Shown in pieces: positions 6,891 through 44,989 of a DNA stretch of 64,000 nt. The notes beneath the pieces are model-generated. The model had not been told where the DNA came from and searched no databases. It saw nothing but the letters and a program-made list of their open reading frames with translations. Positions within the stretch are counted from its first letter, which is position 1, and every line of letters begins with the position of its first letter. Origin of the DNA: Trueperella bonasi (GTDB taxonomy: Bacteria; Actinomycetota; Actinomycetes; Actinomycetales; Actinomycetaceae); NCBI RefSeq assembly GCF_030811535.1, contig NZ_JAUSQX010000001.1, positions 1,736,001-1,800,000 on the forward strand, in the 5' to 3' direction. Position numbers and translations under genes: made by a program.

Positions 6891-8388
6891 AAACAAGGTG
6901 CGGGTTAGTTTGGCCGATATTGCGAGCGAGCTTGGCTGTGCGAACTTGCCTGATGGCATTGTGACCGGGGTGAGCGCCGATAACCGGACGATTCAGCCCG
7001 GGGATCTTTTTATTGCGAGCCGAGGCCGAACGGTACACGCGGCAAGTTTCGCGTGCTCGGCTATTGCGGCTGGTGCGGCAGCGATTCTGACGGACGCGCA
7101 GGGCGCCGAGCTGATAAATAATGAGATGCTTGGCGCGGAGGCGCCTGTTAGTGTGCCGTTGCTCGTCGTCGAGGATCCCGCGGCGGTTGCGGGGCAGGTG
7201 GCTTCGCACGTCTACGGCAATCCGGCGGCACAGTTGACCACGTTTGGTGTGACGGGCACGAATGGTAAAACCTCCACGGTGTACATGATTGACTACCTCT
7301 TGCGTCAGCTTGGGCGAAGGACCGGCCTGATCGGCACCGTGAGCGTCACAATAGGGGGCGAGGCGGTGCCGGCTGCGCTGACCACACCCCAACCGGTGGA
7401 CTTGCAAGGAATGCTCGGGGTGCTCGTCGAGCGCAGCGGGAGCGATCTGGTGATGGAGGTTTCCTCGCACGCGCTCGATCAAAAGCGTACGGATCCGCTG
7501 CGCTTCGACGTCGTTGGCTTCACAAATCTCACCCAGGATCACTTGGATTACCACGAAACTCTCAACGAGTACTTCAACGCCAAAGCCAGTCTGTTTGATC
7601 CGCAGCGTTCGGTGCGTGGCGTGGTGATTGTTGATGACGACGCCGGGGCGCGGCTTTACGAGGAGGCGGCCGAGAGGCGGCCGGGGGCGATTGTTTCGCT
7701 TTCGCTCAGTGGGCGCGCGGCTGATTGGACGGTCAGTTACGACGATCAGCAGTTTACGGTGGAAGGGTCGCGTGGGGTGCTGACAACGCATACGGATCTT
7801 CCCGGTCATTTCAATGTTGCTAACGCTGCGCTTGCGCTGGTGATGGTGATTGAATCCGGTGTGGATCCGGACGTGTTGGCGGAGGCGATTGCCCAGGGTG
7901 GGGTTTCGCCGGTGATTCCGGGCCGGATGGAAGTCGTGAGCGAACGCCCGTATGTGGTGGTTGACTTTGCCCACAATACTGACGCCTTGGAAAAGGCAAT
8001 GCTCGCGGTGAAGTGCGTTCGGCCAGGCAGGCTCATCGTGGTGACGGGCTCGGCTGGAGATCGCGATCGTGGTAAGCGCCCGATGATGGCGCGCGCAGTT
8101 GCGGACCACGCCGATCATTTGATCGTCACCGACGACGATCCGCACTCGGAAGATCCTGCCCAGATCAGGCGGGAAGTGATCGCGGGCATCCCCGAGGGTT
8201 TTTCTTGGCAGGAAATCGCAGATCGCGCGGAGGCGATCCGCACTGCGATCCGTGACGCACATGAGGAGGACGTTGTGCTTGTTGCGGGGCGAGGCCATGA
8301 GACAATCCAGGACGTTGCAGGCGAAGCTATCGAGATCGACGATCGGATGGTGGCTCGCGAAGCTCTAGGAATGGCGGAAGAAACATGA
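6880..8388 (+). CDS. murE: UDP-MurNAc-tripeptide synthetase, predicted lysine-adding
   Basis: Mur ligase of 502 residues that adds the third amino acid to UDP-MurNAc-L-Ala-D-Glu in the cytoplasm. GTG 6880 gives a normal N-terminal domain and overlaps ftsI; the upstream extension of the frame is not used. The ATP loop is TGTNGKTST (K130), and VMEVSSHALDQKR and NLTQDHLDYH are family blocks. The substrate-recognition motif is DDPH (D419-H422) instead of the DNPR that binds meso-diaminopimelate, so L-lysine or ornithine is more likely. The end overlaps murF by four bases. Confidence 0.95.
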   Translation: MRPENKVRVSLADIASELGCANLPDGIVTGVSADNRTIQPGDLFIASRGRTVHAASFACSAIAAGAAAILTDAQGAELINNEMLGAEAPVSVPLLVVEDPAAVAGQVASHVYGNPAAQLTTFGVTGTNGKTSTVYMIDYLLRQLGRRTGLIGTVSVTIGGEAVPAALTTPQPVDLQGMLGVLVERSGSDLVMEVSSHALDQKRTDPLRFDVVGFTNLTQDHLDYHETLNEYFNAKASLFDPQRSVRGVVIVDDDAGARLYEEAAERRPGAIVSLSLSGRAADWTVSYDDQQFTVEGSRGVLTTHTDLPGHFNVANAALALVMVIESGVDPDVLAEAIAQGGVSPVIPGRMEVVSERPYVVVDFAHNTDALEKAMLAVKCVRPGRLIVVTGSAGDRDRGKRPMMARAVADHADHLIVTDDDPHSEDPAQIRREVIAGIPEGFSWQEIADRAEAIRTAIRDAHEEDVVLVAGRGHETIQDVAGEAIEIDDRMVAREALGMAEET

Positions 8389-9782
8389 TCCCGATAAGCC
8401 TTTCGCAAGCGGCGATGGACGTTAAAGGTACGCTTGATGGCGCCGGTGATGAGATGGTCACGGGCGTCGTTTCAGATACCCGGCAGATTCGCGGAGGCGA
8501 GCTTTTCGTTGCCATTGCAGGTGAACGGGTGGACGGTTCGAGCCTTGCGGGTGCCGCGTTTAAAGCTGGCGCGGTAGGTGTTCTGACGGCCAACGCGAAG
8601 GTTGCCTTGGACTCGGGGGCTCCGGTGGATCGCATCATTTCAGTTGATGATCCACTCCTTGCGCTTGGCTCGCTCGCCCGGGAATCATTGCGCCGTGCAC
8701 GCCAGGCCAATCCTTCTTTGAAAGTCGTGGCCGTGACCGGTTCGGTTGGTAAAACGACGACGAAGGACCTGCTGGCCTCCATGCTCGCCATCCGTGGCCC
8801 GATCATTGCTCCACCCGGATCGTTGAACAACGAGCTTGGCTTGCCCCTTACGGTATTGCGAGCGGGCGCGGACACCGCCACGCTCGTGTTGGAGATGGGT
8901 GCGGACAGGATTGGAAATATCGAGTATTTGACCTCGATTGCCCCGCCGGATATTTCGGTGGTGCTATCGGTGGCACGGGCACACTTGGGCGAGTTCGGCG
9001 GAATCGAGAATATTGCGAAGGCGAAAGCCGAACTGGTGATCGGAACGAAACAAGGCGGCGTCGTGATCCTGAACGGAAACGACGAACGCGTGCGCGCCAT
9101 GGCGAACTTAACGGAAGCGGACGTCTACTTTTTTGGGGTGCAGGGGCTTCCCGGTCCACATGCTGAAGATGTTCGCCTTGATGATAGCGGCCATCCGAAG
9201 TTCACGTTGGTTACCTCTCGCGGTAGAGCAGAAGTGACGCTTGGGCTTGTTGGCGAACACCACGTGGCGAATGCGCTTGCGGCGGCGGCCGTGGCCGCAA
9301 GTTTCGGGATCGGCCCGGAACAGATCGCTCAGGTGCTGGCAAATAGCGGGCCCGTAAGCCCGCACCGAATGGCGGTGAGTGAACGCAATGGCGTTCTGAT
9401 CATTGACGATTCCTATAACGCTAATCCTGATTCGATGCGGGCAGGCCTCGATGCTCTTGAGAGCTTGGGGCGTGACCGCCGTAAGATTGCCGTGATTGGC
9501 GCGATGCTCGAACTCGGTGAAGCATCGGACGCCGAACACGCAGCGATTGGTGATTACGCGCATAAATCGGACGTTGATATCGTGATCGCGGTCGGTGAAC
9601 ATCTGCAGGCGCTGGTAGAGGCGGCGAAATCGCACGGTATTGACGTGCATGAAACCGATGCGGACACTGCACTGGCTGTGCTTTCCCCGATTTTCCAGCC
9701 CGGTGACGTAGTCTTGTTCAAAGGTTCTAATGGTTCTGGCGTGTGGCGCGTTGTAGAAGCGTTGCTGGGAGAGGATAGCTAA
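8385..9782 (+). CDS. murF: UDP-MurNAc-tripeptide--D-Ala-D-Ala ligase
   Basis: A protein of 465 residues that ligates D-Ala-D-Ala to the UDP-MurNAc-tripeptide, finishing the cytoplasmic pentapeptide. The ATP-binding loop is TGSVGKTTTKDLL (K123). LVLEMGADRIGNIEYL and IDDSYNANPDSMRAGLD are the central and C-terminal signatures of MurF. ATGA overlap with murE; the stop directly precedes the mraY start. Length and motifs are complete. Confidence 0.96.
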   Translation: MIPISLSQAAMDVKGTLDGAGDEMVTGVVSDTRQIRGGELFVAIAGERVDGSSLAGAAFKAGAVGVLTANAKVALDSGAPVDRIISVDDPLLALGSLARESLRRARQANPSLKVVAVTGSVGKTTTKDLLASMLAIRGPIIAPPGSLNNELGLPLTVLRAGADTATLVLEMGADRIGNIEYLTSIAPPDISVVLSVARAHLGEFGGIENIAKAKAELVIGTKQGGVVILNGNDERVRAMANLTEADVYFFGVQGLPGPHAEDVRLDDSGHPKFTLVTSRGRAEVTLGLVGEHHVANALAAAAVAASFGIGPEQIAQVLANSGPVSPHRMAVSERNGVLIIDDSYNANPDSMRAGLDALESLGRDRRKIAVIGAMLELGEASDAEHAAIGDYAHKSDVDIVIAVGEHLQALVEAAKSHGIDVHETDADTALAVLSPIFQPGDVVLFKGSNGSGVWRVVEALLGEDS

Positions 9783-10868
9783 ATGCTTGCAATTCTCATA
9801 GCGCTGGCAACGTCGCTCATCATTTCGCTGTTCGGCACGCCGCTTCTGGTGAGATTTTTGAAGCGGCGATCTTACGGCCAATACATTCGTGAGGACGGGC
9901 CAACCACCCACTTAGTCAAGCGCGGTACGCCCACGATGGGCGGGATCGTGATCATTGGCGCGACTGTTATCGGGTATACACTGGCCAATCTCGCCACCCA
10001 GCGACTTCCGAATGCCTCCGGCGTTCTCCTGCTATGCCTGATGGTGGGCATGGGCCTGATCGGTTTTCTTGACGACTACTCAAAGATCCGAAATGAACGC
10101 TCCTTGGGCCTGACCCCGATGGGGAAAATCCTTGGGCAGGGCGTGGTTGGCGTTGCGTTCGCGGTGGCATCTCTCCAGTTTAAGAATGACCTGAATCGTA
10201 CGCCGGCCTCGATGCGCATATCTTTTGTACGCGATACGGAGATGAACCTCGCGTTTGCAGGCACGGCTATTGGCGTGGTGTTATTTGTGATCTGGGCAAA
10301 CTTCCTGATCACCGCGTGGTCGAATGCTGTGAATTTGACGGATGGGCTTGATGGTTTGGCCGCGGGTGCGGCCTCGATCGCGTTCGGCGCCTATACGGTG
10401 TTGACTATTTGGCAGTCCTATCAATCCTGCCTGTCGGTGGTCAATCCTGCGCCCGGGTGTTACGACGTGCGTGATCCGCGAGATCTTGCGATCGTGTGCG
10501 CGGCAATTGTGGGCGCCTGCCTCGGTTTCCTGTGGCACAATACCTCACCTGCCGCGATCTTTATGGGGGATACGGGCTCACTGGCACTTGGCGGCGCATT
10601 CGCGGGCGTGTCAATCCTGACCCAAACCCAGTTCCTCGCTGTTTTGATTGGCGGCCTGTTCGTGATCATTGTGATGTCGAACGTCATTCAAGTGGGCTCG
10701 TTTAAAACAACCGGTAAACGCGTATTCAAGATGGCGCCGCTGCATCATCACTTCGAGCTTAAGGGCTGGAAAGAAGTAACGATCGTGGTGCGTTTCTGGC
10801 TGATCGAGGCATTGCTCGCAGCCGTTGGTATGGGCCTGTTTTACGCGGAATGGTTGGCGCAGCAATGA
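9783..10868 (+). CDS. mraY: Phospho-MurNAc-pentapeptide transferase
   Basis: An integral membrane enzyme of 361 residues that transfers phospho-MurNAc-pentapeptide to undecaprenyl phosphate, giving lipid I. About ten hydrophobic helices are visible. The catalytic blocks are FLDDYSK, NLTDGLDGLA and FMGDTGSLALGG, and the KMAPLHHHFELKGW loop with its histidines is intact. It starts at the base after the murF stop and its stop overlaps murD. A polar insert near residues 215-235 (SCLSVVNPAPGCYDVRDP) sits in an external loop and holds three cysteines. Confidence 0.96.
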   Translation: MLAILIALATSLIISLFGTPLLVRFLKRRSYGQYIREDGPTTHLVKRGTPTMGGIVIIGATVIGYTLANLATQRLPNASGVLLLCLMVGMGLIGFLDDYSKIRNERSLGLTPMGKILGQGVVGVAFAVASLQFKNDLNRTPASMRISFVRDTEMNLAFAGTAIGVVLFVIWANFLITAWSNAVNLTDGLDGLAAGAASIAFGAYTVLTIWQSYQSCLSVVNPAPGCYDVRDPRDLAIVCAAIVGACLGFLWHNTSPAAIFMGDTGSLALGGAFAGVSILTQTQFLAVLIGGLFVIIVMSNVIQVGSFKTTGKRVFKMAPLHHHFELKGWKEVTIVVRFWLIEALLAAVGMGLFYAEWLAQQ

Positions 10869-13550: not shown

Positions 13551-14662
13551 TGCCGAATATCGTTCTTGCTGGTGGTGGAACAGCCGGGCATGTAAACCCG
13601 CTGCTTGCTACCGCGAATGCTATCCGAGAAGCGAGCCCGGACAGTCACCTCGTGGCGGTGGGCACGGACTCTGGTTTGGAGGCGAGCCTGGTTCCCGATG
13701 CTGGGTTCCAGCTGGAAACTATCGAGCGAGTGCCGCTTCCAAGGTCTATGTCGCTTGATATTGCGCGGCTTCCCATGAGGATTCGGGGCGCGACGACGGC
13801 GGCCGGCGCAATTTTGGATCGGCACCGGGCTGACGTGGTGGTCGGCTTTGGCGGATACGTGTCAACACCCGTGTATCTGGCTGCTCGGAAGCGAAAGATC
13901 CCGGTGGTGGTGCACGAAGGTAATGCTCGGCCCGGCATAGCGAATAAAGTGGGGGCACGCTTTGCGGCCACGGTGGCGTTGACCTTCCCGTCAACTCCGC
14001 TTCGCGCGAGAAAGGGCATCACGGTGTGCGTGGGCTTACCACTCAAGCCGGAGATTGAGGAGTTGGCCGCCCGCCCGGGTGGGCGGAAAGCTGCACGTTA
14101 TGAGGCGGCTGCGCGCTTTGGGCTTAATGCGGAGGAACCGATCTTGTTGGTAACGGGCGGTTCTTCGGGAGCAAAACACCTGAATGACGTGTTTGCTGCA
14201 GCGGCCGGTGACATTCGAAGTGTGGGTATCCAAACAATTCACGTGACCGGGCGCGGAAAAGATGCACCTGTGCGAGCCAAGGCCCCCGATTCGGGTTACG
14301 TTGTGATCGACTATGTGGACGATATGGAAAACGCTTATGCGGCTGCCGATCTGGCGGTTTCGCGGGCGGGAGCCGGAATGGTGGCTGAGCTTTCTGCGCT
14401 CGGGCTGCCTGCGGTGTTTGTTCCGCTTCCGATAGGCAATGGTGAGCAGGCGCTCAACGCGAAGGACGTGGTGAACGCGGGAGGTGCGATCATGATAGAC
14501 AACAAGAAGCTTGATGTGCGAGCAGTCCGAGATCGTATTATTCCCCTATTTGAGGCAGATACGCTACAAAAAATGTCCCAGCGTTCAACGGGTGTTTCGC
14601 CGCTTAATGCGGCTAGCAGGTTGTCGGAGATTGCGCTCCATCTTGCCGAGGCCGTGCGATGA
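13550..14662 (+). CDS. murG: Undecaprenyldiphospho-MurNAc-pentapeptide GlcNAc transferase
   Basis: GT28 glycosyltransferase of 370 residues making lipid II from lipid I on the inner membrane face. The first glycine-rich loop is VLAGGGTAGHVNP (residues 4-16). GGYVSTPVYLAA and VVVHEGNARPGIANK are N-domain signatures, and the C-domain holds LLVTGGSSGAKHLN and the UDP-GlcNAc site SRAGAGMVAELSALGLPAV. GAGGAG-type ribosome-binding site before ATG 13550; ATGA overlap with murC. Confidence 0.96.
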   Translation: MPNIVLAGGGTAGHVNPLLATANAIREASPDSHLVAVGTDSGLEASLVPDAGFQLETIERVPLPRSMSLDIARLPMRIRGATTAAGAILDRHRADVVVGFGGYVSTPVYLAARKRKIPVVVHEGNARPGIANKVGARFAATVALTFPSTPLRARKGITVCVGLPLKPEIEELAARPGGRKAARYEAAARFGLNAEEPILLVTGGSSGAKHLNDVFAAAAGDIRSVGIQTIHVTGRGKDAPVRAKAPDSGYVVIDYVDDMENAYAAADLAVSRAGAGMVAELSALGLPAVFVPLPIGNGEQALNAKDVVNAGGAIMIDNKKLDVRAVRDRIIPLFEADTLQKMSQRSTGVSPLNAASRLSEIALHLAEAVR

Positions 14663-15990
14663 AATACCATCTGATTGGCGCTGGTGGCGCCGGGATGTCC
14701 GTGGTGGGCCAGCTGTTATTGGAGGCCGGGCACGAGGTGAGCGGCTCGGACCGCGGTGAATCTGCGAATGTTGAGCGCTTGCGGAAGGCCGGCGGGAAGA
14801 TTGCGATCGGGCATGACGCCGCCAATGTTCCGCCAGGTGCCGTCGTCGTGGTTTCAACCGCGATCAAGGCCGATAATCCAGAGTTCGCGGTCGCCAAAGA
14901 ACGCGGCCAAGAGATTATCCACCGTTCTCAGGCGCTGGCGATAGCTGCGGCCGGTAAGGATTTTATTGCGGTGGCAGGCGCGCACGGTAAAACGACGACG
15001 TCGGGCATGCTCGCCGTCGCATTCGACGCGCTTGGGCGTGATCCATCCCGGGCCATCGGTGGTCAGCTTGCCGGCGGGATGTCGGGCGGGCATATGGGCG
15101 AAGGCTCAATGTTCATTGCTGAAGCTGATGAATCCGATGGCTCCTTCTTGAATTACTCGCCGCGCGTGGCTCTCGTGACGAATATCGAACCCGATCACTT
15201 GGACCACTTCGGTTCGGAAGAAGCGTTTCACGAGGCTTTTGCACAGTTCGCCCGCAGGATCGAGTTCGGCGGATTGTTGATCTGTTGCGCCGATAGTCCA
15301 GGTGCTTTTGACTTGGCGAAGCGCGCACGGGCAGCTGGGATGCGCACGTGGACGTACGGCCGGGGTGAAGGCTTGGAACACCACGCGAAGATTACCGACG
15401 TGGATGGGGGAGCAGCCCTCCAATTCCGTGGCAAACCGATCAAGCTACGGCTGGCAGTTCCGGGTGCACACAATGTTTTGAATGCTACGGGTGCGCTTTT
15501 GGTGGGCATTGAACTTGGCGAAGATGCGCAAGACATGGCCGACGCGTTGACGAATTTTCGTGGCACGGGGCGCAGATTTGAGCGCCGAGGCGAAAAGGCG
15601 GGGCGCACCGTCGTCGACGACTATGCCCATCACCCAACCGAGGTGCGGGCCACCCTCGAAACTGCACGCGAGGTGACGGCAGGTGGCGTGCGGGTCCTGT
15701 TTCAGCCACACCTGTATTCGCGCACCGAAAACTTTGCAAAAGAGTTCGCGGATGCGTTGGCGTTGGCGGATTCCGTCGTCGTAACGAACGTGTTCCCCGC
15801 GCGAGAAGTGCCAGAAGATGGTCGTGAATCGGATGCGATTACTGAGCTTTTGCCCAAGGCGGAGCTGGTTGCGGATCGGCACGATGCCGCGCGGCGGATC
15901 GCTGAACTTTCCAAGCCCGGTGACCTGGTGATCACGATGGGCGCGGGAGACATCACCGAGATGGCCGACGTCGTTTTAGGAGCCCTATGA
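14659..15990 (+). CDS. murC: UDP-MurNAc--L-alanine ligase
   Basis: Mur ligase of 443 residues adding the first amino acid, L-Ala. It starts with the nucleotide-binding IGAGGAGMSVVGQLL, has the ATP loop GAHGKTTTSGML (K111), the MurC block EADESDGSFL, the metal-binding histidine region EPDHLDHFG and the C-terminal DDYAHHPTEV. Coupled by ATGA overlaps to murG and ftsQ. Confidence 0.96.
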   Translation: MKYHLIGAGGAGMSVVGQLLLEAGHEVSGSDRGESANVERLRKAGGKIAIGHDAANVPPGAVVVVSTAIKADNPEFAVAKERGQEIIHRSQALAIAAAGKDFIAVAGAHGKTTTSGMLAVAFDALGRDPSRAIGGQLAGGMSGGHMGEGSMFIAEADESDGSFLNYSPRVALVTNIEPDHLDHFGSEEAFHEAFAQFARRIEFGGLLICCADSPGAFDLAKRARAAGMRTWTYGRGEGLEHHAKITDVDGGAALQFRGKPIKLRLAVPGAHNVLNATGALLVGIELGEDAQDMADALTNFRGTGRRFERRGEKAGRTVVDDYAHHPTEVRATLETAREVTAGGVRVLFQPHLYSRTENFAKEFADALALADSVVVTNVFPAREVPEDGRESDAITELLPKAELVADRHDAARRIAELSKPGDLVITMGAGDITEMADVVLGAL

Positions 15991-17171
15991 GGGCGCCTCG
16001 CCAGCCTCGTAAACCAAGCCGCTTGACCACCCAGTCGCCAGTGCCGCGCGAGGGCGGGGGAGAGTTGCCTGCCAAACGGCGGCCCACGATGGAAGACCAT
16101 ATTCCAACCGCGCCCGCGCCAGAAGTGTGGCACGACTGGGAGGACGTCGAGGATGCCGAGTGGTACGAGGACCCGGAAGATCTGGCGCAGGAAGTTGCTC
16201 TGGAGCGCCCCGATAACGACGACGGCGCGCGCGTTGAGGCCGGCGAGACCGATGACGCGAAACCAGAGGATCTCGCCGAGGGCACACCCGAGGAGCTTCG
16301 TGAGGGCGCGGTACAAAGCCGGTCGAAGGCTTTGGCGAAAATTAGCGAGCTCGAGCTGGGTAAGCGAGCGGGAATGCTGTGGGCCCAGACCAGGGCACAC
16401 GTGTTAGAGCGAAATGACTACCAGGATGGCGGGAATTCGATCAGTCTCGATGCGCGGCGGCAGGAGCGGCGCAGAGAAGAAAAGAAGATCCGGCTCAAGC
16501 GCCTTGGCATTGTTGCAGGTATTCTTGCCGCCGGTGCTTTTGTGGCCTGGCTGCTGCTCGGTTCCCCGCTTACGCGCTACGAATTCGATGCGGCGGATAT
16601 TACGGGATATTCAGAGCCTTCGATTGTTAATCGCGCTCAGGTGGAAGAAGTCGTGGCGCGGCGCGATGGTGATTCGGTTCTTTTATTAGACGAGCGCACG
16701 TTGGAAAACGAGATCGTGAGTGAGATTCCCGAGATCGCTACCGCGAGTGTGGATCGGCATTTCCCAGACGGCCTTTCCGTGGCAATTACCGAGGCCGTTC
16801 CCGTTGCGTGCATGTCTGCAGATGAGGGATGCGTAGCGGTCACCGAGAGTGGGGATTATCTAGATATTCCGCCGGATCTGGCAAGTACGCTGCCGCGAAT
16901 CGGCGATATCGGTGCGGAGTTGGATTCGGCAGCTGCGGTTGCGGATGCGCTTGCCGTACTTGGAACGCTGTCTGCATCCACGCGCGCTTTGGTATCCGAA
17001 ATTTCCATTGCAAACGGTGATTTAGTGACGATCAACTTTACCGATGGGCGCAGTGTTTTTTGGGGCGGGCTGGATCGCAACGATTTTAAGTCTCAGGTGC
17101 TTGACGCGCTTGTGAACCAGCCGGCCAGCCACTACGATGTGTCGATCCCGGAAGCTCCGGTCAGCAGATAA
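15987..17171 (+). CDS. ftsQ: FtsQ/DivIB cell-division protein with long acidic N-terminus
   Basis: A bitopic divisome protein of 394 residues. About 165 cytoplasmic residues come first, rich in Asp and Glu (WHDWEDVEDAEWYEDPEDL), then a basic stretch (RRQERRREEKKIRLKR), one membrane helix at about 172-193 (LGIVAGILAAGAFVAWLLLG) and an external POTRA plus FtsQ domain. The N-terminal tail is longer than in most FtsQ proteins. External residues such as FPDGLSVAITEAVPVACM fit the family. ATGA overlap with murC. The expected role is to hold FtsL/FtsB at the septum. Confidence 0.9.
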   Translation: MRAPRQPRKPSRLTTQSPVPREGGGELPAKRRPTMEDHIPTAPAPEVWHDWEDVEDAEWYEDPEDLAQEVALERPDNDDGARVEAGETDDAKPEDLAEGTPEELREGAVQSRSKALAKISELELGKRAGMLWAQTRAHVLERNDYQDGGNSISLDARRQERRREEKKIRLKRLGIVAGILAAGAFVAWLLLGSPLTRYEFDAADITGYSEPSIVNRAQVEEVVARRDGDSVLLLDERTLENEIVSEIPEIATASVDRHFPDGLSVAITEAVPVACMSADEGCVAVTESGDYLDIPPDLASTLPRIGDIGAELDSAAAVADALAVLGTLSASTRALVSEISIANGDLVTINFTDGRSVFWGGLDRNDFKSQVLDALVNQPASHYDVSIPEAPVSR

Positions 17172-40258: not shown

Positions 40259-40516
40259 CTACTTCCCGTAACGCTCCACGAGGTTCGCGACCTTGGCGAC
40301 CATGTCGGACACGTCCGCGCTGTCCTTGGCAGCCAGTCCGATGAGGAACAAGGTCATAGGAGCGCCGGGCCGGGAGGGGCCGTGGGCGATTTTCGCGGTG
40401 AGGTCGAGCAGTTCGTGGCGGTTCGCCTTGTATGAGCTGGCGTCGAGCCCTAGCTCTTCGGCCACGGCGTCCAACCATTCGCCCATGATTTCCATCTTCT
40501 TAGCTTCGTCGGTCAT
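40259..40516 (-). CDS. DUF6457 domain protein
   Basis: A small protein of 85 residues matching DUF6457: EWLDAVAEELGLD at the start, DLTAKIAHGPSRPGAPMTLFLIGLAA in the middle, with the AHG...RP...P block typical of the family. In actinobacteria this domain is often found next to or fused with molybdenum-cofactor genes such as mobA, as I recall; no biochemical role is known. ATGA overlap with tatC makes it the last gene of the tat operon. Confidence 0.8.
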   Translation of the reverse strand: MTDEAKKMEIMGEWLDAVAEELGLDASSYKANRHELLDLTAKIAHGPSRPGAPMTLFLIGLAAKDSADVSDMVAKVANLVERYGK

Positions 40517-41445
40517 TGTTCCTCCTGTGGGTTATTTTCAGTCTCGCTAGCAGGTTCGGCACGAGTGTTAGAGTCCGCGTGACCTTCTGGCGTTACGTTA
40601 GCCTGAGTCCCAGCGCCCGCTGACTCGATTTGAGCTGCCTCCGCCGCCTTTTCTAGGCGTTCGAGTTCATGATCCAGCTTAGCCTCCTCGCGGGCCTGCC
40701 GCCGGTTGCGCAAGCGTTCGTTCACATAAGAGATCAGTACGGCGATCAAATACAGCCCGATGAGTACGAAGGCTTGGATGGTCATCGGCCAGGGCGATGG
40801 CAGCGGATTCGCGATTGCGGCAAACACGAACGCTAGCACAACGAACCAGCGCCAGTGCTTGAGCATCGTCTTGTACGACATGACGCCTAGGAAGTTCAGC
40901 ACCACCAACACTTCGGGCAGTAAAAACGAAACCCCAAACGCCATGACGAGCCGCATGTAGAAGGTGACGTACGTCGTCGCGCGAATAAAGCTCGCCGAAT
41001 TCTCGGGATTAAAGGACGTCAGAATTTCCACCGCGATCGGAGCCATCCGCATGCCGGAAACCACGCCGGCCGCAAACAACACCACGCCAACGAACCCGAA
41101 GCCGATGATGTGCCAGCGTTCGCGGCGTTTGAGCACGGGGGAGATGAAGGCAAAGAGTTGTAGCACCCACCAGGGGCTGGAGATGATGGTGCCGAGCCAG
41201 AGGGCTACGCGGAATTTGAGGTCGAAGGCGGCGCCGATTGTGTCGAAGTTGAGGATGGCGGCTTGGTCGGTGATGTTGGAGAGGGGTCGGGTGATGAACT
41301 CCATGGCCGGGTCATAGAGGTACCATCCGCCGATTGCGCCAATTCCGATTCCGGCTAGGGCGAGCAGGAGGCGTTTGCGTAGTTCGCGAAGGTGTTCGCG
41401 AATGGGCATGACTCCTTCGGGATTGTTGCGCTTGCGCCGGCTCAC
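40513..41445 (-). CDS. tatC: Twin-arginine translocase subunit TatC
   Basis: Six-helix membrane protein of 310 residues, the signal-peptide receptor of the Tat system. MPIREHLRELRKRLLLAL is the conserved N-terminal amphipathic start. ITRPLSNITDQAAILNFDTIGAAFDLKFRVALW and the FSFLLPEVLVVLNFLGVMS-like stretch (GVSFLLPEVLVVLNFLGV) are core parts. The C-terminal tail is long and charged. Overlaps of four bases with tatA and with the DUF6457 gene. Confidence 0.95.
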   Translation of the reverse strand: MSRRKRNNPEGVMPIREHLRELRKRLLLALAGIGIGAIGGWYLYDPAMEFITRPLSNITDQAAILNFDTIGAAFDLKFRVALWLGTIISSPWWVLQLFAFISPVLKRRERWHIIGFGFVGVVLFAAGVVSGMRMAPIAVEILTSFNPENSASFIRATTYVTFYMRLVMAFGVSFLLPEVLVVLNFLGVMSYKTMLKHWRWFVVLAFVFAAIANPLPSPWPMTIQAFVLIGLYLIAVLISYVNERLRNRRQAREEAKLDHELERLEKAAEAAQIESAGAGTQANVTPEGHADSNTRAEPASETENNPQEEQ

Positions 41446-41780
41446 TGGGCTGATTGTTGCCCGTCGGTTTGGTCAGCGTTGCCCTGAGCTGTGCCGCCCT
41501 GCCCAGTACCAGCCTGGCCAGTACCGCCTTGAGCCGTACCGCCCTGGTCGCCGAGCTGCTGATTCATGCCGTGCACCTGCTGCGGATTACCAACCTGCCC
41601 AGTTTGCCCCACCTGCGAGGGCGGCAGCTGCTTGGGATCGTCGTCTTGAAGTTCGCGCAGCTCTTTCTTCATGATTTTGGCGGATTGGCCGATCGATCGG
41701 GTGATCTCGGGCAGTTTGGCCGAGCCGAAGACGATGATGATCACGACGATCAGCACGATGATGTGCCACGGTTTAATCAT
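41442..41780 (-). CDS. tatA: Twin-arginine translocase subunit TatA
   Basis: A protein of 112 residues: one membrane helix (IIVLIVVIIIVFGSAKLPE), the FG hinge, an amphipathic helix (ITRSIGQSAKIMKKELREL) and a low-complexity Gln/Gly/Thr tail (GTGQAGTGQGGTAQGN). TatA multimers form the translocation path for folded proteins. It is 47 bases downstream of tatB and overlaps tatC. Confidence 0.93.
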   Translation of the reverse strand: MIKPWHIIVLIVVIIIVFGSAKLPEITRSIGQSAKIMKKELRELQDDDPKQLPPSQVGQTGQVGNPQQVHGMNQQLGDQGGTAQGGTGQAGTGQGGTAQGNADQTDGQQSAQ

Positions 41781-41827
41781 TGTGGTTCCTTTCCCGGACG
41801 GGCCGAGGTGGTGGTTGATAGTTTATT

Positions 41828-42166
41828 TTAGCGCTGGTTGGGCGTGCGGCGCTCGGGCGGCTTCTTGGGCGGGGTGGCGCCGGTTTGTTTGGCCCAGGCT
41901 TCCATTTCTTCTTGCACGGCTTCGCGGATCATTTGCCGGGGGTCTAGCCCGCGCATGTCGAAAGCCGATAGATCGACGTCGCCCAAACCGCTTGCTTGGA
42001 AATCGGCGCTTGTTTCTTCGCGGACGCGGGCGGAAAAGCCTTTGGCGGCGTCGACGAGTTTTCGGAATCCGCGCAACGCTCCAGTGATGGCCTCGGGGCC
42101 GAGCACGATGGTGGCGACGATGAGGATGATCAGGAACTCACCGCCGGAGATTCCAAAAAATTCCAT
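41828..42166 (-). CDS. tatB: Twin-arginine translocase subunit TatB
   Basis: A protein of 112 residues with the TatB-type start MEFFGISGGEFLIILIVATIVLGPEA (Glu in the membrane part, GPE hinge) and a longer amphipathic helix (GFRKLVDAAKGFSARVREET). The C-terminal region is more conserved and charged than in TatA. First gene of the operon tatB-tatA-tatC-DUF6457. A 62-base divergent promoter region separates it from the TorD-like gene. Confidence 0.92.
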   Translation of the reverse strand: MEFFGISGGEFLIILIVATIVLGPEAITGALRGFRKLVDAAKGFSARVREETSADFQASGLGDVDLSAFDMRGLDPRQMIREAVQEEMEAWAKQTGATPPKKPPERRTPNQR

Positions 42167-42228
42167 ACGTTTATCCTACGTTGTATAAGGGGTAACCTCT
42201 AGGTAGGTAAGCGAGAGCGGGAGGCAGT

Positions 42229-42906
42229 ATGGGTACGACGCCGTGGCAGGATTCGGTGCCGGAGGTCAAGATGCGTGCGGTGCAGGTGGCGACGGCGCTG
42301 TTTTCGCTCGCGCGGTTTTTTGTGGAGGCGCCAAATCCGGAGATTACCCGCCGGTTTACCGATCCGCAGATGGCGGGGACGTGGCCGGTACGTGATGAAG
42401 ACTCGTTGGCGGCGATTGAACAGATTGCGCGCGCCGACGAGATGGCGATCATGTTGAACGAGGATTTCAATCGGATGTTCGGCCCGGCGGGGGCGTTGAT
42501 GATGGCCGAATCGGAGTATACGGGCGAGAATCATTTGCCGCTGGTGCAGGCCTTGAACCGAAAGTATGAGGAGCGCGGGTATCGGCCGCAAAAGACGGAG
42601 GGCTATCCGCGCGATCATTTCGCCGTGCAGTTGGGGTTCTTGGGGCATCTAGTGGCGAAGCTGGCCGATGAGCCGGGGGTGGCCGCCGAAGTGCGGGCGT
42701 TCCGGGCCGAACATGTAGATCGCTATGCCGATGACCTGCTGACCTTGTTGGATGCCCACGCGCGCACGCAGATGTATCGGGGCGTGGTGGTGTTGACGCG
42801 CCGGGCGCTGGATGCGTTGGACGAGGTTGTGGGCATGGTGGGTGCTGAGCCAGCGGGAGAGGTGCCTGAGGGAGCCGTGCCAACTGGAGACGGTGCCGAT
42901 GGCTGA
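42229..42906 (+). CDS. TorD/DmsD-like molybdoenzyme chaperone
   Basis: An all-helical protein of 225 residues. ALFSLARFFVEAPNPEITRRF, LNEDFNRMFGPAG and the block YPRDHFAVQLGFLGHLVAKLAD resemble the TorD family, whose members bind Tat signal peptides and insert cofactors into molybdoenzymes such as DMSO reductase. Divergent from tatB. The last bases overlap the next gene, an Fe-S protein. No molybdoenzyme is in the window, so its client must lie elsewhere or be lost. Confidence 0.7.
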   Translation: MGTTPWQDSVPEVKMRAVQVATALFSLARFFVEAPNPEITRRFTDPQMAGTWPVRDEDSLAAIEQIARADEMAIMLNEDFNRMFGPAGALMMAESEYTGENHLPLVQALNRKYEERGYRPQKTEGYPRDHFAVQLGFLGHLVAKLADEPGVAAEVRAFRAEHVDRYADDLLTLLDAHARTQMYRGVVVLTRRALDALDEVVGMVGAEPAGEVPEGAVPTGDGADG

Positions 42907-43765
42907 CCACGTTTCCTCACTGTTGCGCTGGCTGTTTGCGCACGACCTCCCAAAAGAGGTGGTGCTTGCCTGCGAGCATACGGAGGTGCCGCGGCTTGGG
43001 CGCGGGCGGCAGGCCGTGGTGTGGAATGGGTGCCTGAAAGATGCGCCGGTGGGTTTTCCGGCGCAGATGTTGGCGTTGGGTGTGCAGAAGGTTGGCGTGT
43101 TGCCGTGTGGGGAGAACCCGGATGCGGTGGGGGAGCAGCTGGCGGAGTGGGAGTCGCTCACCCCGCGGTTAATCTACGACGCCGGGGCGCTCAAGCCGGG
43201 CATCTTCCGCGGCCCCGAGGCGCTTACGGTGGGGCAGATTCCGGTGCCAAGGCGCGTGATTATGGGGCTCGGGCTGCGGGATAAGCCGCCGTATTCGCTC
43301 AAGGGTGATGACACGGCGCGGACGTTGGCGGCCCTCGAAGTACTGACCGCGAAGGGGCTGGTGCGAAGGGGAGAGGGCCTCGATTCGAAACTTGGTGGCG
43401 TAAGGCTGGGCGTGAGTGCGTGTACGGCGTGTGGGGTGTGCGTGCAGGCGTGCCCTCATGGTGCCTTGACCTTGTTGCATCACGAGACGGGCTCCGTGCT
43501 GTGGCAGACCTCGGAACTATGCCGGGGCGAACAGAAGTGCGTGCAGTTGTGTCCGATGGAGGGGCTGTGGGTGCAGGGGGAGATGCGGCTGGCGGACTTG
43601 TTGGACGAGCCCGAGCGGCAACTGTTCGTGTTGGAGAGCGCGACGTGTGAAAAGTGTGGGGCACGGCATCCCGCGAGTGAGGGTGCGCTGTGCCAGGTGT
43701 GTGAATTCCGGCGCTCGAACCCGTTTGGGAGCATGGCCCCGCCGGCAGGTTTTCATCCTCGGTGA
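42899..43765 (+). CDS. 4Fe-4S dicluster protein with MvhD-like N-terminal domain
   Basis: A protein of 288 residues. The N-terminal 130 residues (VVLACEHTEVPR, VVWNGCLKDAPVGFPAQMLALGVQKVGVLPCGE) resemble the MvhD/FlpD domain that passes electrons in heterodisulfide-reductase-type complexes. A ferredoxin domain follows with C175-C178-C181-C185-P and C208-x5-C214-x3-C218-P, then a C-terminal zinc-ribbon or rubredoxin-like knuckle with C250, C253, C265 and C268. The start overlaps the TorD-like stop by eight bases. Probably an electron carrier of a molybdoenzyme; function inferred. Confidence 0.65.
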   Translation: MADHVSSLLRWLFAHDLPKEVVLACEHTEVPRLGRGRQAVVWNGCLKDAPVGFPAQMLALGVQKVGVLPCGENPDAVGEQLAEWESLTPRLIYDAGALKPGIFRGPEALTVGQIPVPRRVIMGLGLRDKPPYSLKGDDTARTLAALEVLTAKGLVRRGEGLDSKLGGVRLGVSACTACGVCVQACPHGALTLLHHETGSVLWQTSELCRGEQKCVQLCPMEGLWVQGEMRLADLLDEPERQLFVLESATCEKCGARHPASEGALCQVCEFRRSNPFGSMAPPAGFHPR

Positions 43766-44062: not shown

Positions 44063-44989
44063 TTGCTGATCGCATACTTGGACGAGATCGGTGAGCCTGG
44101 AGCATTTGTCTCAAAGGAACATGACAGATTCAATACGAGCCCTGCATTCGGTTACGCCGGGTTTGTAATCCCTGACGGCAAAGCGAGGGAGTTTGGCGCT
44201 TTATTTACAACCAAAAAGAGACAACTGTTCTCGCGTGAGATTGCGGAAGCAGAGGTTAAGAAGCCAGGTTCTGAATCCACGTGGGAGATGAAGGGAGCGA
44301 ATTATTTTCATAAACATACTGATCGGAAGAATCCTGAACGTATCCGTATTTTTAATTCCTTAATTCACAACCTCCTAGGGTACGGAGGCCACATTTTCTA
44401 CTATGCGGATGAAAAAGAGAGAGGGACGCCAAAACAGACGCGTTTGGATACCGACGCCCGAGAAAAAGGAGCGATGGAAGAGAGCTTAAACAGGTTGGCG
44501 CGTTATGCTGAGTCGCAAGATCAGAACATGCTCGTTATCATCGACCAAATTAACGAAAAAGAGCGAAAAATGCGAGCTCACAGAATATACGGGCACGTGT
44601 ACAGCAGGAGTCAGACAGCCGATGAAATGAAACGAATCATCGAAGCTCCAATGCACTTGGACTCTGGAATATCAGGTTCAATACAATTTGCAGACTGGAT
44701 CGCTGCAGTAGTAGGACGCGCTATCGATTATCACCTCATCGAAGAATCGAAGTTCGACTGGGTTCCTGCTGTCATCAGCTCCTTGCAGCCTCAGAAGAAA
44801 GCCTTCACTTACGAATCTAAACTTCACCTTTTTGAAAGAACGATCGAAGACATTAATCACTCGCAGTTGTTCTGCAAGGAGAGGCCCGTTTATCCAGCTC
44901 ACCACGACCAATACTTCGACGCTGACACGGCCGAGAAAATGAAGCGCATTTTTTATTCTTCTCGAAGACAGGAGAGTCGGAAGGGGTAA
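44063..44989 (+). CDS. DUF3800 family protein
   Basis: A protein of 308 residues. The N-terminus LIAYLDEIGEP matches the YxDESG strand of DUF3800, and SGSIQFADWIAAVVGRAIDY matches its C-terminal Asp-containing helix; the family is thought to have an RNase H-like fold. It is common in phages, islands and defence neighbourhoods and its function is unknown. TTG 44063 follows GAAGGAG. Base composition is visibly more AT-rich than the flanking core genes, and it sits directly after a tRNA, both consistent with horizontal acquisition. Confidence 0.75.
   Translation: MLIAYLDEIGEPGAFVSKEHDRFNTSPAFGYAGFVIPDGKAREFGALFTTKKRQLFSREIAEAEVKKPGSESTWEMKGANYFHKHTDRKNPERIRIFNSLIHNLLGYGGHIFYYADEKERGTPKQTRLDTDAREKGAMEESLNRLARYAESQDQNMLVIIDQINEKERKMRAHRIYGHVYSRSQTADEMKRIIEAPMHLDSGISGSIQFADWIAAVVGRAIDYHLIEESKFDWVPAVISSLQPQKKAFTYESKLHLFERTIEDINHSQLFCKERPVYPAHHDQYFDADTAEKMKRIFYSSRRQESRKG

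Follow-up and report, generated by a model that had tools for sequence, protein, structure and literature searches.

The window analysed here is a 64,000-nucleotide stretch of the closed 1.9-Mb genome of Trueperella bonasi (genome bases 1736001–1800000), and the subject is a locus at window positions 40259–43765, in which the genes tatB-tatA-tatC-DUF6457 on the minus strand diverge from plus-strand genes for a TorD-like chaperone and an iron-sulfur (Fe-S) protein. The locus is probably the maturation-and-export part of a DmsABC-type respiration, encoded apart from dmsABC, in which the Fe-S protein would act with the chaperone, a second TorD paralogue termed TorD2, on the DmsA precursor. A strong genetic association points to the DmsABC enzymes of the same genome (dimethyl sulfoxide/S-/N-oxide reductase type), which are encoded far away, as the client of the locus.

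Association of the locus with dmsABC

Among 91 genomes of the host's family, the Fe-S protein and DmsC occur together in 40 and are both absent from 49, with no genome carrying the Fe-S protein only and two carrying DmsC only. The two latter genomes (G003 and G006) are draft assemblies in which a contig starts a few hundred bases ahead of tatC at this locus. In genera where only some genomes have DmsC (g1, g9, g12, g16, g21, g24, and g28), the absence of DmsC is accompanied by the absence of the Fe-S gene, and G002, a genome of the host genus, is without matches to the Fe-S protein, DmsC, TatC, DUF6457, PF02613, and moaA, all together. Family genomes with a PF02613 match and without DmsC have no Fe-S gene, and nitrate reductase (NarJ) was rejected as the client on this ground. 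In one genome (G029, genus g22), DmsC and the Fe-S protein were found and TatC was not; it is a 50-contig, 99% complete draft, possibly with an assembly gap.

The Fe-S gene lies no more than 15 kb from DmsC in 29 of 40 genomes, from TatC in 24 of 39, and from DUF6457 in 28 of 37. Gene order differs by genus, and the Fe-S gene of most other genera stands within a dmsABC-torD cluster. No other single observation argues as strongly that DmsABC is served by the window genes as the gene order in Oceanitalea (L073) and Georgenia (L074), where DUF6457-FeS-TatB-TatA-TatC-DmsA-DmsB-DmsC-TorD2-TorD1 run uninterrupted and all five gene types of the window are thus joined to dmsABC; the identities of DUF6457 and DmsA in L073 were confirmed by Pfam. 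The window layout itself recurs in five other genomes of the same genus, its Fe-S/Tat/DUF6457 part is also present in Arcanobacterium, and looser forms occur in many genera, so that the linkage is not peculiar to this strain, an outcome by which the sequence-only reading would have been refuted. Across 35 actinobacterial loci, the Fe-S gene is nearly always near torD and/or dmsABC, the exceptions being the Tat-linked Arcanobacterium type and truncated contigs. Enzyme gene number also varies: Ancrocorticia populi (L075, 3–6913) has three tandem DmsA-like genes followed by a single dmsB-dmsC-torD1-torD2-FeS set, and two Flaviflexus loci (L093 and L094) likewise carry several DmsA genes in a row.

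Three proteins with the PF00384 domain are encoded in the T. bonasi genome, two of which are DmsA; the third was ruled out as a client, being NuoG in a nuo operon. The DmsA genes belong to two adjacent dmsABC operons (L004, genome 1186001–1206000) about 580 kb from the window locus, at L004 positions 7192–9909 and 14000–16465. Each DmsA carries an SRRTFLK twin-arginine translocation (Tat) signal with a match to TAT_signal (PF10518), and both exceed the cut-off of TIGR02166 (1013.2 and 1043.1 bits, cut-off 777.7). Similarly, DmsB2 passes TIGR02951 (245.5 bits, cut-off 214.1), and both DmsC proteins pass PF04976 (84.8 and 98.1 bits, cut-off 22.3). Apart from NuoG, no molybdoenzyme besides DmsA1 and DmsA2 was found in the genome, and searches for the sulfite-oxidase type (PF00174) and the xanthine-oxidase type (PF02738) gave none. 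The sequence-only reading had expected a respiratory molybdoenzyme encoded elsewhere, a point set beforehand as its test, and the two Tat-signal DmsA proteins together with moaA, also found in the genome, bear this out. The TorD paralogue TorD1 is encoded downstream of the first dmsABC set, with a prolyl-oligopeptidase gene in between. The two complete sets are thus accompanied by just one nearby torD1 gene, and between them lies a pyridine-nucleotide-disulfide-reductase gene with a rhodanese domain.

Composition of the locus and of its Fe-S protein

The features of the locus are as follows (window positions).

40259–40516, minus strand: DUF6457 protein of 85 amino acids (PF20058 4e-20, 71.9 bits, cut-off 27)
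40513–41445, minus strand: tatC (PF00902 3.9e-51; TIGR00945 135.3 bits, cut-off 132.7)
41442–41780, minus strand: tatA (PF02416 5.3e-14; NF001854 and TIGR01411 above cut-off)
41828–42166, minus strand: tatB (TIGR01410 39.5 bits, below the cut-off of 56.5; NF002377 4e-10; position)
42167–42228, no strand: divergent intergenic region of 62 bp between tatB and the TorD-like gene
42229–42906, plus strand: TorD/NarJ-family chaperone, the second paralogue TorD2 (PF02613 35.9 bits, cut-off 22.2)
42899–43765, plus strand: gene for the putative Fe-S accessory protein (alignment, Cys/Arg table, predicted structures, and fold matches)
Amino acids 1–114 of the Fe-S protein: putative MvhD-like domain, followed by the twin-Arg motif PRRVIMG (R118 R119)
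Amino acids 175–218 of the Fe-S protein: ferredoxin sites
Amino acids 250–268 of the Fe-S protein: CxxC...CxxC knuckle

All genes of the sequence-only reading are present in the divergent arrangement that it described, and all are intact. Its placing of the Tat export apparatus in the same locus also holds. The tatC of the window is the single TatC match in the genome; TatC and TatA pass their translocase models, and TatB, the weakest gene call at the locus, was called partly by position because its TIGR01410 score is below the cut-off. No inverted repeats of at least 12 bp were found in the 241 bp around the tatB/torD intergenic region. In the family alignment, the conserved start of the Fe-S gene is the ATG at 42899, not 42812, and this codon lies inside the 3' end of torD in an 8-bp overlap (ATGGCTGA). 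Among named relatives, the Fe-S protein of Trueperella bernardiae is closest (65% identity), and its locus has the same order (L069, dgt-dnaG-DUF6457-tatC-tatA-tatB / torD-FeS). A DUF3800 gene directly 3' of the Fe-S gene (44063–44989) was not found there in the same-genus loci L009–L013.

The chaperone passes PF02613 and neither of the equivalog models, with 26.0 bits for DmsD (cut-off 162) and 16.6 bits for TorD (cut-off 132). In a tree of 59 TorD-family proteins, a TorD2 clade separates from the dms-operon TorD1 proteins with a support of 99/91, and the window chaperone's partners in it come from Georgenia/Oceanitalea, Nocardioides, and three further genera of the host family; the inner placement is unsure because several end branches are long. 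The genes for TorD1, TorD2, and the Fe-S protein are consecutive in L019, L034, and L036.

By its gene neighbourhood, DUF6457 is a molybdenum-cofactor-associated protein. Within the host family, it is present in 39 of 42 genomes with DmsC vs 8 of 49 without, and it stands beside dmsABC-torD-FeS in many genera. In other families, it directly adjoins mobA (PF12804), moaD (PF02597), and moeA (PF03453), in agreement with the statement in the sequence-only reading that it occurs with molybdenum-cofactor genes. Long open reading frames raised the suspicion of a MobA-DUF6457 fusion, but in the cases read, mobA proved to be a separate neighbouring gene. No literature on DUF6457, on Trueperella with DMSO reductase, or on TorD with MvhD was found among open-licence papers.

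The C-terminal half of the Fe-S protein contains three Cys clusters, namely CTACGVCVQACP, CRGEQKCVQLCP with only three Cys, and the CxxC...CxxC knuckle. The earlier count of three clusters is therefore right for this half and incomplete for the whole protein, as the N-terminal domain holds an additional set (C25, C45, and C70). In an alignment of 30 family proteins over their length, R118-R119 and the knuckle residues C250, C253, C265, and C268 are invariant in 30 of 30, and the variants of the RR motif (PRRVIMG, PRRALLG, and SRRSFLG) resemble the Tat consensus. No N-terminal signal peptide is apparent on the Fe-S protein. The ferredoxin Cys residues are more variable: 13 of the 30 rows have C at position 211 and the remainder E, D, S, or T, and four rows (L029, L034, L035, and L036) lack further ferredoxin Cys. 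The E, D, S, or T at position 211, in the second ferredoxin site (43520–43555), could give a [3Fe-4S] or an acid-ligated [4Fe-4S] cluster. The residues C25, C45, and C70 are jointly present in most rows and jointly absent in L014, L031, and L033, while L034 is without C45 only; this pattern suggests that they form one metal site. The three rows without the trio belong to an Arcanobacterium and to Flaviflexus-like genomes.

The full-length protein was predicted with a mean local distance difference score (pLDDT) of 92.3 and a template modelling score (pTM) of 0.83, and the N-terminal 114 residues alone with a pLDDT of 92.1. The C-terminal half matches the Escherichia coli HycF structure 7z0t_F (Z 10.0, 107 residues, root-mean-square deviation (rmsd) 3.6). 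MvhD-type Hdr-complex subunits (8rvu_F, 7bkb_F, 5odh_D, and 5odc_D) take the first four places among the structural matches of the N-terminal domain, with Z scores of 6.1–6.7, which are below 8 and in the chance range (next row 5.8), over 85–87 residues at an rmsd of 3.2–3.6. Pfam FlpD (PF02662) has no match on the window protein at E<=1, and a search of Protein Data Bank sequences with this domain returned no relative. The term MvhD-type in the sequence-only reading would thus hold at the level of the predicted fold only, where a haloarchaeal (Haladaptatus) relative with a genuine FlpD domain (PF02662 3.5e-18, 66.2 bits) agrees with it, and not at that of a Pfam match.

Distant relatives and the proposed role

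The Fe-S protein, which the sequence-only reading could not place, appears to be a member of a TorD-associated family that also takes in ArxB2-like proteins, with gene position, profile match, motif order, and about 20% identity as the link to ArxB2. Direct tblastn of the window protein against plasmid records gave no match. A Nitrospirota relative (L104), found with a profile from a 10-row subset of the 30-row alignment, served as a bridge query, and the plasmid records then gave long forms in Azoarcus, Sulfuricella, Sulfurovum, Cereibacter, Bradyrhizobium, and Haladaptatus, so that the longer relatives spread over Nitrospirota, Pseudomonadota, Campylobacterota, and haloarchaea. The inspected matches weaker than L104 are generic ferredoxin-type proteins (RnfB-like, electron-transfer-flavoprotein-like, and glycyl-radical-activase-like) and were left unused. 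The profile aligns through the ferredoxins and the knuckle in L104, L129, L130, and L133, whereas the inspected control ferredoxins stop at the ferredoxin, and the RR pair is invariant in a five-sequence alignment (A5). The window protein has the family's order of central domain, RR motif, paired ferredoxin sites, and knuckle beside TorD, its N-terminal part being weakly supported by sequence.

In L104, the C-terminal part of an apparent molybdoenzyme is followed by the Fe-S gene and then by TorD (PF02613, 2.1e-21). A TorD-family gene lies within 7 kb of the long form in six of six inspected plasmid loci, five of which list a molybdo-oxidoreductase or formate dehydrogenase; the gene table of the Sulfurovum plasmid has an NrfD anchor and a gap where the enzyme gene would be. 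Outside the Actinobacteria, TorD adjoins seven of seven inspected relatives, and a molybdo-oxidoreductase is present in all six with an enzyme gene listed or readable. In plasmid pSCD of Sulfuricella denitrificans (L130), the Fe-S gene comes first in an operon with a molybdo-oxidoreductase, an Fe-S protein, NrfD, and TorD, divergent from genes for a binding protein, a sensor kinase, and a regulator. An arxB2ABCD / arxXSR layout has been described, with the arx genes of S. denitrificans being plasmid-borne, the role of arxB2 stated as unclear, and the gene called specific to arx (PMC6549141). The Sulfuricella Fe-S gene fits arxB2 because its operon matches this layout. The window gene is not arxB2 in the strict sense, as the genome's enzymes are DmsA and no arx cluster surrounds it.

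The Fe-S protein is best read, by inference from sequence, as a maturation factor that partners TorD in the cytoplasm and not as a respiratory subunit. TorD-family chaperones bind the signal peptide and the apo-enzyme (PMC10609526), and NapF, a cytoplasmic Fe-S protein, is required for Fe-S assembly of Rhodobacter NapA and binds E. coli NapA (PMC10609526). In the proposed sequence, TorD2 and the Fe-S protein would be co-produced and would handle the DmsA precursor while it is cytoplasmic, with TorD2 holding the apo-enzyme and its signal peptide. The Fe-S protein, as NapF reportedly does for NapA, might help to build or reduce the [4Fe-4S] centre of DmsA, or check its presence, before export by TatABC. 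DUF6457 would act on the molybdenum-cofactor side, and, more speculatively, the internal RR motif may let the Fe-S protein dock to TorD2 or the Tat apparatus.

Several points weigh against this reading. The function of the locus is inferred throughout, and the Fisher P of 8e-24 for the co-occurrence of the Fe-S protein with DmsC ignores phylogeny and kinship. The RR motif was not seen in the long forms of Haladaptatus and Bradyrhizobium (L132), and E. coli and Wolinella are only marginally affected by the deletion of NapF (PMC10609526). Electron carriage is the usual task of ferredoxin folds, and the two proteins that the predicted folds resemble, MvhD and HycF, are electron-transfer subunits. 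This last point favours a less likely alternative, in which the Fe-S protein is a cytoplasmic ferredoxin-like hub exchanging low-potential electrons with the molybdoenzyme system or with some other soluble complex, and TorD2 is simply transcribed along with it; HycF also touches the molybdoenzyme FdhF (PMC9474812), and ArxB2 is listed in the arx papers among structural components or small subunits. Against such a hub, DmsA-DmsB-DmsC is already a complete chain to the membrane and DmsA has a Tat signal, TorD is the partner conserved across phyla while no redox enzyme is consistently linked, and conservation is stricter in the RR pair and the knuckle than in the ferredoxin Cys; maturation is favoured over respiration on these grounds. 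The maturation half of the earlier proposal of a maturation and electron-transfer module is accordingly retained, and the electron-transfer half is disfavoured by the phylogenetic and gene-order evidence.

An improbable alternative makes the Fe-S protein a redox or oxygen sensor gating export, whose clusters would report anaerobiosis or iron status and whose RR motif would block or release TorD/Tat. A motif resembling that of Tat signals in a protein that has no such signal at its N terminus, the association with TorD and often with Tat genes, and the common E or D in place of one cluster-II Cys, which might make the cluster labile, would fit it; lability would not be general, however, because the residue is C in several lineages. 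That the linkage is accidental, with housekeeping Tat genes lying by unrelated genes and the Fe-S/TorD2 pair serving nothing specific, is scarcely credible: TatC does occur in 24 family genomes without DmsC, but it is strongly disfavoured by the co-occurrence and by a linkage that recurs in rearranged form in many genera.

The family of TorD-linked Fe-S helper proteins is widespread and unstudied. The insertion of [4Fe-4S] clusters into exported molybdoenzymes, and its sensing before export, are poorly understood outside Nap, and ArxB2, the actinobacterial Dms accessory protein, and the long forms in formate dehydrogenase-type clusters would be brought into one TorD-linked family with a common hypothesis, which would argue that ArxB2 is not specific to arx. 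DUF6457 likewise gains a firm molybdenum-cofactor context. A bolder and rather doubtful extension of the maturation reading is that the TorD-partner Fe-S protein is a third general maturation factor for exported molybdo- and tungsto-enzymes in Bacteria and haloarchaea, in most lineages with an internal Tat-signal mimic that would hold the TorD/TatBC site until the cluster is handed over or oxidised; if so, only enzyme with a finished Fe-S centre would be exported.

Comparison with known systems

ArxB2 (L130), so called here from position and the published cluster description and not from a named record, shares with the window protein a central domain with a conserved Cys-Leu motif, the RR pair, the paired ferredoxin sites, and the knuckle, as well as the company of a molybdo-oxidoreductase and the TorD-like ArxD. 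It differs in its greater length, an extra N-terminal ferredoxin, an enzyme that is ArxA and not DmsA, and an identity of about 20%. NapF is similarly a cytoplasmic Fe-S protein for a Tat-exported molybdoenzyme, with an N-terminal twin-Arg motif in E. coli (VKIDASRRGILTG), but has four ferredoxin motifs, no MvhD-like domain, and no knuckle. The window protein scores 22.3 bits on the NapF model TIGR00402 (cut-off 102.2), and homology beyond the ferredoxins is not claimed because NapF aligns to the family profile over the ferredoxin part only.

FdhE also has CX2C metal sites and is dedicated to exported molybdoenzymes (PMC10609526); it contains four CX2C motifs, whereas the window protein has two in the knuckle plus the ferredoxin sites, and Pfam and NCBIfam model scans gave no FdhE-family match on it. 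In HycF/HyfH of formate hydrogenlyase, two ferredoxin sites are likewise followed by a Cys-quartet metal site, which in HycF holds a metal ion near FdhF (PMC9474812). HycF is a stable complex subunit, its match stops short of the MvhD-like domain and RR motif of the window protein, and the latter falls below the HycF/HyfH models (NF009053, 27.5 vs cut-off 204; NF006076, 21.2 vs 270). MvhD/FlpD may share the predicted fold of residues 1–114 and differs in identity (<=12%) and domain context. Finally, the proteobacterial TorD-fdh operons (PMC4464133) also have TorD and a ferredoxin-like gene beside a molybdoenzyme. In Bradyrhizobium (L132, 1–6054), a formate dehydrogenase-torD cluster, which also includes DUF3306, DUF3305, DUF6352, DUF6505, and a biotin/lipoate ligase-family gene, is divergent from the long Fe-S form, and this locus is likely one case of those operons with hypothetical ferredoxins.

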